64,000 bases of DNA from Gemmata palustris. GTDB lineage: Bacteria; Planctomycetota; Planctomycetia; Gemmatales; Gemmataceae. The notes beneath the pieces were generated by a model. That model was not told the origin of the DNA. It saw nothing but the letters and a program-made list of their open reading frames with translations, and made no database searches. The stretch is taken from assembly GCF_017939745.1 (NCBI RefSeq), contig NZ_JAGKQQ010000001.1, positions 6,215,299 through 6,279,298 of the forward strand. Direction: 5' to 3'. The translations under genes and the position numbers were made by a program. Positions 12,132-40,047 of the stretch are shown one piece after another. Position 1 is the stretch's first letter. The number at the start of each line of letters is the position of its first letter.

Positions 12132-12198
12132 ACGTCGCCCGCGCAGTGAACGCGAGCGGCGGCACAACACTTCAGGCCCGTTTCGGCATCCCTGTAAC

Positions 12199-12252
12199 GA
12201 GCCGCGACCGCAAGGGAGCGGGAGGCCCCCAGCTCCCTTGCGGTCGCGGCTC
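12199..12252. terminator. Perfect 21-bp inverted repeat between convergent genes
   Basis: gagccgcgaccgcaagggag plus c (12199-12219) is the exact reverse complement of 12232-12252, with a 12-base loop. It lies between the kinase stop (12131) and the stop of the minus-strand DksA-like gene (12284), so it can end transcription from both sides. No clear T-run is present; it may equally be a dispersed repeat of the genome. Confidence 0.6.
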
Positions 12253-12283
12253 ATTCGATCCCCTACACCGATCCTGAAACGAG

Positions 12284-18146: not shown

Positions 18147-18235
18147 GGCGAACGGCCGGCGTGAGCCGGCCGGTGAAGCATCCTGTTTGGTAGCGCTATC
18201 CAGATTCACCAGCCGGCTCACGCCGGCCGTTCGCC
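18147..18235. repeat. Inverted pair of REP-like units (BIME-like)
   Basis: 18147-18177 and the reverse complement of 18205-18235 match at 30 of 31 positions. Each arm also folds on itself as ggccggc-gtga-gccggcc, a 7-bp stem with a GTGA (GNRA-type) loop. The pair fills the gap between two convergent genes and probably acts as a two-way terminator. It is related to 1803-1830 and 7374-7447. Confidence 0.75.
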
Positions 18236-33447: not shown

Positions 33448-34809
33448 TCAGTCCGGAAGTAGCGGCATTGGTGGGTTGTCGAAGAGCCTCCCTCCACCCT
33501 CCACTCTCTCCCCAGTCTCCCTTCTCTCCCCAGACTCCCCACTCTGGATTCCCCTTGTTTTTCCAGTGTGGGGAGAGGGGGGAGAGAAGGGAGACTGGGG
33601 GGTAAAGGGAGTAAAGGGAGCCGAAGACGATTCGGGCTGAGAGTTCCACTCATCCGGGTCTCCGAACCCCGACCACCATACACCGCGAAAACAGCTTCGG
33701 TTAGAACTTACCAATCCTTGATCCTTCAGCTTCACCTTTGCCTCCTTTAAATTGTCAAATGTGAAGCCTGCTTTCTTTGCAGCGGCCTCAATCTCTTTGG
33801 AAGGGCGCGCGCGTGCCCTTAGCAACCCGCACAGCCATTCGGCGCACTTCTCGACCCTGCTCTTGTCGTTCCGCTTCCCAACGGCCCCCGTCACTTCGTT
33901 CGGGTCGTTCGTTACCCCGTCCTCCCAGCGCTGCCGAAACATCTGTTTGGCGAGTTCGGTCGTCTCGTTGGGGTCCAGGTCCGGCCATACGGCCGTAAGC
34001 ATCTCGCGGGCCTCGTCCGGCTCGATCGCTTCCATTCGGAAAGCAAGCCCATGCGTCCCGGCCGGGAGCACGTTCGCCTTGATCGGCATCATTAGTTTTC
34101 GGTCCGGGTCTTCTGGATCGGGCGCGATTAGGTACGCGAACCGGACCGCGTTTACATACCCCACCGACCCGCCCACGCGCTGAACGGCCGAGACGCTCGC
34201 CGACTTGTTCAGATGCTTGACCAGGAGGACTGTAGCGCCGGTATCGTTCGCGGTCCCGTTCAGCGGGTCCAGGATGGTGCGGAGTTCGGCGTCCTTATGC
34301 TCATTAATCCCGCTCCGGCCGATGTACGCGCCGGCCGGGTCGATCGAGACCAATTTGATTTCGGGGTCCGACTTCAAGAGTCGTTCCAGTTCCCGGTAAT
34401 GTCCCAAGTGAAAATCGAGTGTTTGTCCGTCACTCTTCAGTTTCACCCCCTTGACCCGCAGGACGCGAGTCAGGTCTGCACCGAGCGCGGCGAGTCGCGG
34501 GATTATGGTCCGCTCCCAATCGTCCTCGCAACTCACGAGCAGGGCCTTCCCCTTTACCGGGTCAGGGTATTTCAAACCGAACGCGCACCGCCCGGTCGTG
34601 ACCGCCGCGGCGAGTTCGAGTGTGGTCATCGACTTTCCGTGCCCCCCGTCGCCCGCGAGCAACCCTACCAACCCGGCGGGTATGCGCCCGGGAACGAGCC
34701 ACCTCAGCGGTTTGGGGCGCAACCCTTCGAGGGACTCGACAATGAGCTTCGGCTCGTCCCTCGTGGACCCGATCGCGTGCCCGTTCGTGCTTGGGTTAGG
34801 CCCGACCAT
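33448..34809 (-). CDS. RepA/DnaB-like AAA ATPase (AAA_25 type)
   Basis: A 453-residue ATPase of the RecA-like class that serves replication of phages and plasmids. Walker A is GDGGHGKSMT, Walker B is KLVSIDPAGAY, and VLLVKHLNKSA is the third motif; FLKYPDPVKGKALLVSCEDD-type context and a C-terminal winged-helix-like region (RPSKEIEAAAKKAGFTFDNL) fit the AAA_25 family of planctomycete elements. The last 70 residues are low complexity (Ser/Pro then Gly/Glu/Arg), encoded by a large palindrome at 33510-33600. It probably supports replication of the excised element. Confidence 0.78.
   Translation of the reverse strand: MVGPNPSTNGHAIGSTRDEPKLIVESLEGLRPKPLRWLVPGRIPAGLVGLLAGDGGHGKSMTTLELAAAVTTGRCAFGLKYPDPVKGKALLVSCEDDWERTIIPRLAALGADLTRVLRVKGVKLKSDGQTLDFHLGHYRELERLLKSDPEIKLVSIDPAGAYIGRSGINEHKDAELRTILDPLNGTANDTGATVLLVKHLNKSASVSAVQRVGGSVGYVNAVRFAYLIAPDPEDPDRKLMMPIKANVLPAGTHGLAFRMEAIEPDEAREMLTAVWPDLDPNETTELAKQMFRQRWEDGVTNDPNEVTGAVGKRNDKSRVEKCAEWLCGLLRARARPSKEIEAAAKKAGFTFDNLKEAKVKLKDQGLVSSNRSCFRGVWWSGFGDPDEWNSQPESSSAPFTPFTPQSPFSPPSPHTGKTRGIQSGESGERRETGERVEGGGRLFDNPPMPLLPD
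33510..33600. repeat. 38-bp inverted repeat inside the AAA gene tail
   Basis: 33510-33547 and 33563-33600 are inverted copies, matching except for a few bases in the middle and one near the loop, with a 15-base loop. The arms are C/T- and G/A-rich. The palindrome lies in the reading frame and encodes the low-complexity tail, as if an extragenic palindrome had entered the 3' end of the gene. Confidence 0.65.
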
Positions 34810-36463: not shown

Positions 36464-37666
36464 CTACTCCCGCGGCCGATCGAATGAATTATTGCTTGTC
36501 TGTCCGTCGTGAGCAATCTCAGACGGAGGCCAGAGCCACGCGCGAACGTGATCGGTGATGGCTCTCAACCGATCGTCCCCGATGCGCTCGCGGTACAAAC
36601 TGGCCATGTCGTCACGCGCGTGGCCCATGATGTGGTCGATCGCGGGCTGATCCTTCGCGCCGTCGGCCACGGTGCGGAACGTATGCCGCAGGGCGTAGAA
36701 GCCGACGCCGGGACGTTTCAGTTCTGACGCCACGAGTAACTTCCCGAACTCCAGTTGCACCGCGTCAACGGTCGTCGCCGGTTTGTCCCCGCGGTCCCGT
36801 GTTCTCACCCAGCGAGCCCCGTACTTGGTGACGAACATCAATCCCGCATCGGCCGCGCTCTTGGCTTTGGGGCGCTCGGGGATGACCTCGCGGAGCGCCG
36901 CAATCGTTTCGGGCCAGAGTGGGCACCGGCGCATGACCTCGGTTTTCGGACGCGGGTAATCGATCCACCCGCCCTTAAAGTCAATGGCTTTGAGCGGTAG
37001 GTTCGCAACGTCGGTCTGCCCGTACCCGCAGTTGATCGCGAGAAGGATCATGGCCCTCATCGGTTGTGCTGCCGCGCCGAGTAACGTCCTCAGTTCGTCG
37101 GCTTCGATCATTTTGGGACCGGCCTCGTGGCGCGCCTTCCGCATGGCCTTCTTCGACGGCTTCTTGAACAGTGTTCCGAACCGAACCGGCTTTTCGATGA
37201 GCCCCTCGTCCCATGCGTACTTGAAAAGCGTCCGCACGCGCTGGACCTCACCCGACAGGGCATGCGCCCCGCGCGTCTTCGACAGGGTCGCGCGGAGCTT
37301 CTCGAAATCCTCGCTGGTGAGGTCGAGTACGAGTCGGGTCTTTCCGAACGCGCCGACGAGGTTTTCGCAAGTGAGGAAGTAGTGCGCCCAAGTGCGCGGC
37401 GACAGTTCACCCGAATCGAGAAGGGTCTTCTTGGACGTGAGGAAGCGGTTCGCGAGGTCGCGGACCGTGAGACCGTCGTTGGACGCGCGAGGGGTGCGCC
37501 CGGCTTGCAGGTCGTCGCGCTGGTCGAGGTACTTGGACAGAGCCGCATCGGGATCGGTGCCGAAGTAGTGCAGCTTGCCGCGAACCTTCTTGGCCCACTG
37601 ACCGGTCTGGTGTAAGAAGAGGGGGAAGTCGGGGTAGGGCTTCTTCGGTTTGGGCTTCTTCTTCAC
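36464..37666 (-). CDS. Tyrosine recombinase/integrase, catalytic Arg I replaced
   Basis: A 400-residue integrase that inserts the element at tRNA-Arg. An N-terminal AP2-like segment (FLHQTGQWAKKVRGKLHYFG), a SAM-like core-binding domain (about 65-155) and a catalytic domain are present. Box II is ALRHTFRTVADGA (H328, R331), then IMGHA (H349) and the nucleophile Tyr in SLYRERI (Y358); Lys is in RPKTEV (K241). The first catalytic arginine, normally in TG-L-R, is replaced by Gly in INCGYGQTD (G216). This variant is, to my memory, common in planctomycete integrases. Its 5' end adjoins the tRNA, and a degraded homologue lies at the left end. Confidence 0.9.
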   Translation of the reverse strand: MKKKPKPKKPYPDFPLFLHQTGQWAKKVRGKLHYFGTDPDAALSKYLDQRDDLQAGRTPRASNDGLTVRDLANRFLTSKKTLLDSGELSPRTWAHYFLTCENLVGAFGKTRLVLDLTSEDFEKLRATLSKTRGAHALSGEVQRVRTLFKYAWDEGLIEKPVRFGTLFKKPSKKAMRKARHEAGPKMIEADELRTLLGAAAQPMRAMILLAINCGYGQTDVANLPLKAIDFKGGWIDYPRPKTEVMRRCPLWPETIAALREVIPERPKAKSAADAGLMFVTKYGARWVRTRDRGDKPATTVDAVQLEFGKLLVASELKRPGVGFYALRHTFRTVADGAKDQPAIDHIMGHARDDMASLYRERIGDDRLRAITDHVRAWLWPPSEIAHDGQTSNNSFDRPRE

Positions 37667-37758
37667 GGCGGCCCTCGGTTTTGGTGACGGTTCGGGCTTG
37701 TCGGGTGTAGCTTCGGGTGTAGTGTCATGATAACGGTTTCGGGAGATCGGTTAAAAAA

Positions 37759-37817
37759 GGCTCGAAAATGAGCGCTCTGCGCCCGTAGCTCAACTGGATA
37801 GAGCATCCGCCTTCTAA
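37759..37817 (+). repeat. Right direct repeat (attachment site)
   Basis: Identical over 59 bases to 22257-22315. Here the repeat is joined to the remaining 35 bases of the tRNA, so the inserted element supplied a new 5' half and leader and restored a complete tRNA gene. Confidence 0.9.
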
Positions 37818-37852
37818 GCGGAAGCGTGTGGGTTCGATTCCCACCGGGCGTA
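37779..37852 (+). tRNA. tRNA-Arg (anticodon TCT)
   Basis: A complete 74-base tRNA without encoded CCA. Acceptor stem gcgcccg pairs with cgggcgt (one G-U at the tip); D arm around gctcaactggatagagc; anticodon stem tccgc/gcgga with loop cttctaa; T arm gtgggttcgattcccac. The discriminator is A. It reads arginine AGA codons and is the integration target of the element to its left. Confidence 0.95.
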
Positions 37853-37948
37853 CTTTTCTGTAGCACCTCCGGTCAGTGCTGCCTGTCGTGCCGTAAGCCC
37901 TCTCGGACTCAAATTTCGGGTAGGTGCCGTCGATGAGATGAAGGCGCT

Positions 37949-39463
37949 CTACTTCCCGATGCAAAAGCGCGAAAAGATGCGATCGAGCAAATCGTTGGTA
38001 TATACCGCACCCGTCATCTCACCGAGCGGTTCGATTGCGCCACGCAGCGCGAGTGCGAGTAGTTCCGGTGCGTTGTTGCTTGCAGCCAGCGCGCGGGCTT
38101 CGCGCAGGTGCTCGAGGCACGCGAGGACGTGGTGCCGGCACCGACTTTGGCTCGGCGCCAGGGCCGGGCGCGTGAGTGACGTAACTGTGTCACTCAGTGC
38201 CGTGCGGAGGTCGTCGAGGCCATTGGGAGCGAGCGCGGATGCACTGATGTGACTTCCTTTCGCGGGTTGCTCAGTTCGCAAGTCGCTTTTCGTTCGCACC
38301 TTCAGGACGGTGGCGCCGACCGCGAGCAATCGCGATTCGTCCGCGGTGCTGAAAGTGCCGTGTTCGTCGCACCAAACGATGACGTCCGCGCGCGTCGTTT
38401 GCTCGCTCCCGAGTCGCTGTGCCTGTTCTTCGATCGTGTCGGATGAGCCTTGCCAGCCCGCGGTGTCGATCAACTCGATTGTTATGCCCGTAAGGGTGAC
38501 TGACTTCGTGAGGTAGTCGCGTGTGGTTCCTGGAGTCGGGCTGACGAGGGCGGCCCCGCCCGCAAGTGCGTTGAATAGGCTGCTCTTTCCCGCGTTCGGT
38601 AGCCCCACGAGCGCCACGCGAACCGGGCGCCCGGATACGGTTCGGTCGTCGAGTTGCTTCCGCACCATTTCGAGCTGGTCGATCGCACTTTGAACGCGGG
38701 TGAGTATTTCCGCTCTTCCAACGAATTCAATGTCTTCGTCCGCGAAGTCGAGTGCAGCTTCGATGTCAGCAAGCAGGTTCAGCAGGTCGTCGCGGAGCAT
38801 GTTGAGGGGTTGCGACACGCCCCCGGCGAGCTGCGCGAGGGCCGCGGTCAGGTCCGCGTCGGTACCGGCCTCGATTACGGCTTGCACCGCTTCCGCTTGT
38901 GGCAGATCCTTCTTGCCCGCGAGGAACGCTCGCATTGTGAACTCGCCCGGGCGCGCCGGCCGCGCGCCGGCTGCCAGTAGGTCCGCAACGAGGCGCTCGA
39001 CGAGGGGCAGGGAGCCAATCGTGTGCAGTTCCGCGAGGTCTTGCCCGGTGTACGACTTGGGGCCGGCAAAGAAGTACAGTGACGCGGGAAGCGGTGAATG
39101 CACGCCGCTGAGCCGAAGGGAGCCGGAAATGATGCGGCGGAGAGAGGAGCCTGCCCTCCTTCCTAAAGGAGTGAGGTGGCTGGCCGAACCTACCCCCCCC
39201 GCCCCCCTCCCTGAAGGGAAGGGGGAGAAAGAATTGTCGGCAAACGTTGTCTCAAGCACTGCGGGCTCGCGCGCCAGCTCCCCCTTCCCTTCAGGGAGGG
39301 GGGACGGGGGGGTAGGTTCCCCCGCCGCGAACACCGCCTCAATTACCGTGCGCGTATTCGGCCCGCTGACGCGAACGATCGCGCGTGCAGCGAACCCGTT
39401 CGCCGACGATACGGCTACGATGGTGTCTTCTGGGTGAGGCGCAGTAGTCGCAGTAAGGCTCAT
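37949..39463 (-). CDS. mnmE: tRNA modification GTPase MnmE with in-frame palindromic insert
   Basis: MnmE with MnmG makes the 5-carboxymethylaminomethyl group on wobble uridine. The 504-residue protein has the N-terminal formyl-THF-binding domain (DTIVAVSSANGFAARAIVRV, AGPKSYTGQDLAELHTIGS), the G domain with GLPNAGKSS, DTAGW and TKSD, and the C-terminal FCIGK with its reactive Cys. Residues 49-92 are extra (PTPPSPLPEGKGE ... PFPSGRGAGGVG), encoded by a 132-bp palindromic element; without them the length is about 460, the family norm. The ATG at 39463 shares one base with the stop of the DUF2007 gene, so the two are coupled. Confidence 0.95.
   Translation of the reverse strand: MSLTATTAPHPEDTIVAVSSANGFAARAIVRVSGPNTRTVIEAVFAAGEPTPPSPLPEGKGELAREPAVLETTFADNSFSPFPSGRGAGGVGSASHLTPLGRRAGSSLRRIISGSLRLSGVHSPLPASLYFFAGPKSYTGQDLAELHTIGSLPLVERLVADLLAAGARPARPGEFTMRAFLAGKKDLPQAEAVQAVIEAGTDADLTAALAQLAGGVSQPLNMLRDDLLNLLADIEAALDFADEDIEFVGRAEILTRVQSAIDQLEMVRKQLDDRTVSGRPVRVALVGLPNAGKSSLFNALAGGAALVSPTPGTTRDYLTKSVTLTGITIELIDTAGWQGSSDTIEEQAQRLGSEQTTRADVIVWCDEHGTFSTADESRLLAVGATVLKVRTKSDLRTEQPAKGSHISASALAPNGLDDLRTALSDTVTSLTRPALAPSQSRCRHHVLACLEHLREARALAASNNAPELLALALRGAIEPLGEMTGAVYTNDLLDRIFSRFCIGK
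39187..39318. repeat. 132-bp palindromic element inside mnmE
   Basis: 39187-39227 and 39278-39318 are inverted copies of 41 bases differing at two positions, with a 50-base spacer. Each arm contains ccttcccttcaggg, which is palindromic in itself. The element is 44 codons long exactly, has no stop in the mnmE frame and lies in a surface region of the N-terminal domain. Confidence 0.85.
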
Positions 39464-40047
39464 TAGCCCAACAACGGAGAGAGAAGCATGAAAATTGCCA
39501 CAACCAACACAGAGAGGCCGCCAATACCCACCAAGAAGAGCGGCCAGATCGAAAGCAAGATCGCGGCGCGAAGATTCCACCTTCCGCGCGGACTCAGTTC
39601 GCCGGGTCCAGTAGACGCTCGCCGGATCATCCGAAGAGCGAATAGCGCAACGAGCGGCATGAGATTCCCGATCACGGCCGCTTGAAACGCCAACCGCGCA
39701 TCCTTTTCGCGGGCAACAGAGTCCGCAGTTGGATTGGCAGCAGATGCTGGCTCGGCCGCATCAGCGGCGTCTTCCGCAAGTGTCGCTTCGGCTTGCACCG
39801 CCAAGTCCGCTTCGTCAACGGGTTCGTGGGTTCCGAACGTTTCGTCCAACACCTTTACGGCCTGCGGCTCATCTTCTTCGCGCACGACCAACCGGATACC
39901 GATCGGCAGCATTACCTGCCCAAATAGTGACGAGGCTTGTTCATTGTCGAGGTGCATTTGAATGCCGGCCGCTTCCAGAGCACCTTTCGCGGTGTGGGCA
40001 TCTATCAACTCATCGAACGTCGCGATCGTGACGAGGCGTCCCGCCAT
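39463..40047 (-). CDS. DUF2007-type protein with C-terminal membrane helices
   Basis: A 194-residue protein. Residues 1-75 (VTIATFDELIDAHTAKGALE, AAGIQMHLDNEQ, PIGIRLVVREEDEPQAVKVL) match DUF2007, called putative signal transducing protein. An acidic Ala-rich linker and two hydrophobic helices (FQAAVIGNLMPLVALFALRM; ILLSIWPLFLVGIGGLSVLV) follow. It is coupled to mnmE. The function is unknown. Confidence 0.78.
   Translation of the reverse strand: MAGRLVTIATFDELIDAHTAKGALEAAGIQMHLDNEQASSLFGQVMLPIGIRLVVREEDEPQAVKVLDETFGTHEPVDEADLAVQAEATLAEDAADAAEPASAANPTADSVAREKDARLAFQAAVIGNLMPLVALFALRMIRRASTGPGELSPRGRWNLRAAILLSIWPLFLVGIGGLSVLVVAIFMLLSPLLG

Follow-up and report, generated by a model that had tools for sequence, protein, structure and literature searches.

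An in-frame palindrome in mnmE of Gemmata palustris as a probable copy of a dispersed mobile element

Rickettsia palindromic elements (RPEs) are palindromes of 105-146 bp that lie in frame in conserved Rickettsia genes, and an active guanylate kinase is among the described hosts (PMC2229807, PMC10969869). Housekeeping genes of Rickettsia, of Wolbachia, and of a single archaeon are cited as carrying coding palindromes (PMC2996958); the same source treats such palindromes in Wolbachia and Methanocaldococcus jannaschii along with PARCELs. A 2024 review treats protein evolution by such inserts in other prokaryotes as merely conceivable (PMC10969869).

Short hairpin repeats of the REP type can also lie within genes. 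Di Nocera 2013 reported intragenic dimers of GTAG/CGTC REPs in many phyla, including Planctomycetes, with the largest number of intragenic GTAG units in Opitutus terrae, a member of the PVC superphylum (PMC3733652). According to the same paper, two REP families permit a dinucleotide between GTAG and the stem-loop, and beside some RAYT genes other inverted repeats take the place of the REPs. The word "Gemmata" is absent from its text. Searches of the literature on palindromes, repeats, and RAYTs of Gemmata and Planctomycetes, and on coding palindromes, returned no description among the matches listed, as judged from titles and the starts of abstracts and with most subscription journals outside the scope.

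We analyzed a 64,000-nt stretch of the Gemmata palustris genome (contig NZ_JAGKQQ010000001.1, positions 6,215,299 to 6,279,298; hereafter the window). An initial annotation had proposed that its mnmE gene carries a near-perfect palindrome in frame, adding 44 codons and recalling RPEs.

The mnmE palindrome

The host gene lies in a minus-strand ORF (37949-39580) that would encode 543 aa from a GTG or 504 aa from the ATG at 39463, the start that agrees with relatives. Pfam matches to MnmE_helical, TrmE_N, and MMR_HSR1 identify the product as MnmE, a tRNA-modification protein, and the TrmE_N match is split into two stretches. The proposed in-frame palindrome was confirmed. An inverted-repeat search delimits 134 bp with 42-nt arms that are 95% complementary (two mismatches), separated by 50 nt, and the ORF is open throughout (Table 1). 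The figure of 44 added codons holds approximately for the palindrome itself. Relative to G043, which belongs to the same genus and is the nearest relative sampled, the net insert is about 52 codons by manual count, since the neighboring segment (residues ~94-108) is also extra.

Table 1. Coordinates of the palindrome, its parts, and its host gene in the window
Feature	Coordinates	Strand	Remarks
mnmE, host gene	37949..39463	-	504 aa; Pfam and relatives
Coding palindrome, whole element	39186..39319	.	minus-strand reading corresponds to mnmE residues E49 to about S93
First arm, mnmE sense	39278..39319	-	reads EPTPPSPLPEGKGE
23-bp hairpin unit in first arm	39280..39302	-	CCCCCTCCCTGAAGGGAAGGGGG, exact
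Inter-arm loop, 50 nt	39228..39277	-	varies from copy to copy
Second arm, mnmE sense	39186..39227	-	reads SPFPSGRGAGGVGS
Second-arm hairpin unit, inverted	39203..39225	+	exact
Extra segment beside the palindrome, ~residues 94-108	39140..39184	-	missing in the nearest relative sampled (G043)

Folded as host-strand RNA, the palindrome reaches -105.6 kcal/mol (z -10.64); 200 shuffled sequences average -61.35 +/- 4.16, and none equals it. It also has terminal inverted repeats, a feature of MITEs. The arm pairing, the fold z-score, and the copies of its unit across the genome led us to reject a chance palindrome or an assembly oddity. At gathering score, Rfam identified one tRNA in the window and nothing else. 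The extra segment beside the palindrome was rejected as a further dispersed repeat on its genome match counts, which are at near-control level: a 20-mer from it has one exact match and one match with three mismatches, and the reversed control has 1.

In an AlphaFold model of MnmE (27 sequences), pLDDT falls below 50 in two stretches, residues 54-97 and 104-106, which lie between the strands at 45-47 and 109-116. Overall, 384 of the 504 residues have pLDDT of at least 70 (mean 79.6; pTM 0.57). Given the low values across residues 54-97, the model leads us to expect that the insert forms a disordered, floppy loop of the N-terminal domain.

Inverted repeats of the window were listed with arms of at least 20 nt and spacing of at most 200 nt. 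Among the ten matches listed, three have arms of at least 30 nt at 90% or more, and the mnmE palindrome is the longest of these. Near-perfect palindromes outside scored coding frames occur at 18147-18235 (31-nt arms, 97%) and at 12196-12255 (30-nt arms, 90%, no spacer). One frame of the latter reads SRDRKGAG, a peptide also noticed by eye near L045, and the peptide RSLAVAAR is seen near L045 and L008. A different, imperfect palindrome (50-nt arms with 82% complementarity) occupies 33499-33611 in a 453-aa ORF (33448-34809, minus strand), in frame and close to the C-terminus. Just downstream of mnmE, a phage-type integrase gene (PF00589) adjoins a tRNA-Arg(tct) gene (37779-37853); the pair, at 36464-37853, is possibly the end of an integrated element.

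Copies in the genome and among relatives

The G. palustris genome (9.23 Mb, 3 contigs) contains 116 match pieces to the element, a count that includes both strands of the palindrome. The 23-bp unit has 101 genome matches at three or fewer mismatches, versus 0 for the reversed control. Clustering used 100 of these 101 units and yielded 63 clusters, comprising plus-minus pairs, for the most part spaced by 75-83 nt, as well as single units and triples. With one more from an exact-arm pattern scan, 64 clusters were examined. That scan, which was blind to genes, found 16 pairs, 13 in genes by scripted or hand assignment and 3 not, with loops of 50, 53, or 56 nt in all 16. Further copies, coding or not, which the initial annotation had left as a matter to check, are present inside and outside genes according to the unit search and a codon-usage test. 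Phage and plasmid records searched for the element gave no match.

The codon-usage score was trained on the window plus fetched loci, and the ORF was required to be open through the hairpins. By this test, 34 of the 64 clusters lie in frame inside longer ORFs that score as coding on both sides. Four more (mnmE itself, L138, and L140, L145, and L153) were assigned to genes by hand. Six of the 34 (L109, L110, L115, L135, L144, and L150) depend on one 3-mismatch unit alone and may be unrelated to the family. Pfam families were found for 31 of the 33 in-frame host ORFs submitted, L132 lying in the same gene as L131. The hosts include penicillin amidase, PNKP ligase, aldehyde dehydrogenase, DegT and class-V aminotransferases, RecO, RsmB, a KdtA-type transferase, GT87, AMP-binding enzymes, sulfatase/BNR, FabA-type domains, RNase H, and UPF0261. 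Two separate full elements lie in frame in the gene for the PNKP-type repair ligase (L131/L132; G000:C1:5515284 and 5516238). By eye, the hosts at L143, L161, L120, L158, and L164 also hold other in-frame repeat-like peptides, e.g., NPLTPFPKKEGG...SPSPLRGGVGEGL; several coding repeat families thus seemingly accumulate at the same loops.

A fixed rule applied to all 64 clusters (both units with at most 5 mismatches, spacing 66-96) identifies 34 full elements and excludes L120. Twenty-three are in genes (19 scripted, 4 by hand) and 11 are outside. The spacing is 2 mod 3 in 22/23 in-gene versus 6/11 outside-gene full elements (Fisher p 0.008), and the outside-gene copies that break this pattern are at 0 mod 3 (four) or 1 mod 3 (one). 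L157, the sole in-gene exception, has a spacing of 75 (0 mod 3), yet its host ORF is open. One host codon phase is common to all 23 in-gene full elements. This single phase is partly built into the element, because 16 of the 23 have no other open sense frame. The opposite-strand mirror frame is open in 20 of the 23, and orientation relative to the host gene is 15 to 8 in a hand-picked set of copies. In two relatives, the arms are read partly in another frame while the host ORF continues (L225 in Gemmata sp. IIL30, L232 in G043).

We compared the loops of in-gene copies by codon position. Difference rates at positions 1/2/3 are 0.389/0.383/0.387 for spacing 77 (9 copies), 0.628/0.681/0.635 for spacing 80 (6 copies), and 0.405/0.445/0.407 for spacing 83 (7 copies). 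With no codon-position bias in the three groups, these loops give no sign of amino-acid constraint: the open frame is preserved rather than the peptide.

The two arms of a copy resemble each other more than they resemble arms elsewhere. In the 23-nt core, the mean difference between arms is 1.88 within a copy and 2.62 from one copy to another (permutation p 1e-4 over 34 copies). The effect is present both in genes (1.83 vs 2.38, p 0.018) and outside them (2.00 vs 2.76, p 3.5e-4), and unusual changes are common to both arms in L153 and L168. Hairpin-templated repair, or copying through the hairpin, may keep the arms alike; RNA-structure selection, subfamily descent, or separate insertions could equally be the source.

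For the comparison of MnmE, 60 other family genomes were sampled and the 29 best loci fetched; three lacked a readable ORF and were dropped. The palindromic insert is present in none of the 26 readable Gemmataceae relatives, which speaks against the old, conserved segment that the initial annotation had named as the contrary case. The same loop varies in length across the family and carries another palindromic insert in L055 (G039) and a single hairpin in L059 (G049). At 21 other host sites compared by eye with G043, a related piece was seen at three (L160, L163, and L166), a doubtful one at two (L134 and L165), and none at 16; several G043 orthologues have different low-complexity stretches there. 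The related pieces imply that some insertions may be old.

Element DNA matches at least 10/61 family genomes, own included (E <= 0.001; in many of the genomes, part of the first-look candidates were scored). A looser exact-arm pattern found pairs in three of the nine other matching genomes (four in G043, one in G038, two in G026). Of these seven pairs, L232 and L227 score as in frame within genes on either side of the element; the remaining five do not. In a planctomycete sample, at least 5/293 other genomes match, with short matches only (two candidates scored per genome). An exact-arm scan of named genomes returned six stretches, all labelled as planctomycete (four Gemmata, one Fimbriiglobus, one Singulisphaera); by eye, the element is inside an ORF in L220, L221, and L225. 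One site in penicillin acylase is filled both in G. palustris (L128) and in a MAG labelled Singulisphaera sp. GP187 (L220). The host flanks of these two are 78% identical and the arms match at 38/42 and 37/42. Their loops are hardly alignable, and that of L220 is shorter by three, a multiple of three.

Origin of the insert and alternative explanations

We consider it likely, with a probability of roughly 0.85, that what sits in mnmE is a copy, tolerated in frame, of a mobile and dispersed palindromic element found in Gemmata-like planctomycetes. Carrying this reading are the repetition, the in-frame position in ORFs of known families, the absence from mnmE of relatives, the frame-keeping spacing, the unbiased loops, and the likeness of arms. 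The element has two inverted hairpin units, each of ~42 bp, that enclose a loop usually 47-56 nt long, and it would spread through the genome by inserting both in genes and between them. A copy within a gene may survive when its landing phase is its open phase and the site is a tolerant surface loop. As mirror images, the arms usually leave the matching frame open on each strand, with the result that EPTPPSPLPEGKGE...SPFPSGRGxGGVG is read in either orientation. In mnmE, translation of the copy would give the N-terminal domain a disordered loop, and the presence of the copy is probably nearly neutral.

Explanations that start from the protein or its mRNA have considerably lower probability. It is improbable that the added peptide was selected for doing something, for example because it serves as a disordered Pro/Gly linker. 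Among in-gene copies of the G. palustris genome, the peptide encoded by the arms hardly varies, as selection would have it; however, the arms are largely constant as DNA in copies outside genes too, the loop difference rates are nearly equal at the three codon positions in all spacing groups, and L225 and L232 use other frames. The very stable RNA hairpin might instead be skipped or excised at the RNA level, by RNase III cleavage or bypassing, so that MnmE is made without the insert. This is very improbable, since a removed segment would need neither the open host frame found through all 23 in-gene full elements nor the frame-compatible spacing of 22 of them. It is scarcely credible that the segment has long belonged to MnmE itself and is conserved for its role in the protein. 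The variable loop length of the family and a short GAACC...CCCC stretch at the site in G043, which resembles the start of an arm, could be read in favor of this; set against them are the absence of the insert from all 26 readable relatives, related DNA in many unrelated genes, and loops that diverge between copies with no codon-position bias.

We think it somewhat unlikely, and more plausible than any protein- or RNA-level account, that this is a REP/BIME-type element whose movement depends on RAYT-type transposases and whose main role is in RNA or chromosome structure, the in-gene copies being accidental. Each arm is itself a short hairpin, the whole is an inverted dimer, and loose single units and groups occur, as for REPs (PMC3733652); intragenic REP dimers are known from, e.g., Opitutus terrae (PMC3733652). 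Y1 transposase genes are present in 10/10 family genomes with an element match (own included) versus 37/51 without, a weak association for which genome size is a confounder. Against this reading, GTAG is ~10 nt from the 23-bp hairpin core and not at the stem-loop end, and its polarity is presumably also reversed relative to the REP layout. No hairpin unit, with up to 5 substitutions allowed, occurs in the 3.2-3.3 kb inspected around each of the three Y1_Tnp genes of the G. palustris genome. Moreover, 23 of the 34 full elements are in genes, whereas REPs are described as mostly intergenic (PMC3733652). Three REP features that we tested, a terminal GTAG, a transposase gene flanked by the repeat, and a mainly extragenic location, were therefore not found. 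Counting against our preferred reading as well, a search for a parent transposon, which covered Y1 transposases, found none, and visual inspection of the sites in diverged relatives showed no target-site duplication.

Comparison with described elements

The initial annotation's likening of the palindrome to RPEs holds for anatomy and behavior; drawn by description only, it means that the element works like an RPE and not that it is one. RPEs are described as palindromes of ~100-150 bp with a long stem-loop, as is the 134-bp mnmE element, and as having many dispersed copies inside and outside genes, as the Gemmata element does. In-frame insertion in unrelated conserved genes is likewise common to both (34/64 clusters), with arms partly in other frames in L225 and L232. 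The differences are a planctomycete host with a 9.2-Mb genome, and a build of two inverted hairpin units accompanied by single units and groups. In addition, the two arms of a Gemmata copy stay more alike than arms of different copies; those of RPEs are described as losing their repeat identity over time (PMC6649704).

The coding palindromes of Wolbachia and M. jannaschii and the PARCELs share the addition of codons in frame by palindromic DNA, and an open frame on the opposite strand is a feature predicted for them (PMC2996958). They belong to other lineages, and PARCELs are tandem repeats tied to membrane proteins; this comparison, too, is by description (PMC2996958). In Nematomorpha mitochondria, inverted repeats are likewise retained in coding sequence, and template switching has been proposed for the likeness of their arms (PMC6649704). 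Those palindromes are mitochondrial and mismatch-free and, in the part of that source available to us, are not described as a dispersed insert (PMC6649704).

Dozens of in-frame clusters, lying in genes of known families, make the question of protein evolution by such inserts testable, since the copies can be aligned with one another, checked against relatives, and deleted singly. For annotation, disordered Pro/Gly-rich loops in Gemmata proteins should be viewed with caution, as they may be mobile DNA. We tentatively suggest, at slightly less than even odds, an independent planctomycete invention of the Rickettsia strategy: a self-mirroring selfish element, usually with the same open frame on both strands, whose arms are kept alike in each copy while the loop drifts in all but frame. 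Together with other palindrome families, it would repeatedly hit the same tolerant loops (that of mnmE in three genera), steadily supplying disordered segments to core enzymes.

REP dimers resemble the Gemmata family in being short hairpins arranged as inverted dimers, some within ORFs (PMC3733652). They differ in that the Gemmata GTAG is not hairpin-terminal, most full elements are in genes, and no transposase gene was found beside a unit. Even without the three tested REP features, the Gemmata family is built like a REP dimer and works like RPEs.
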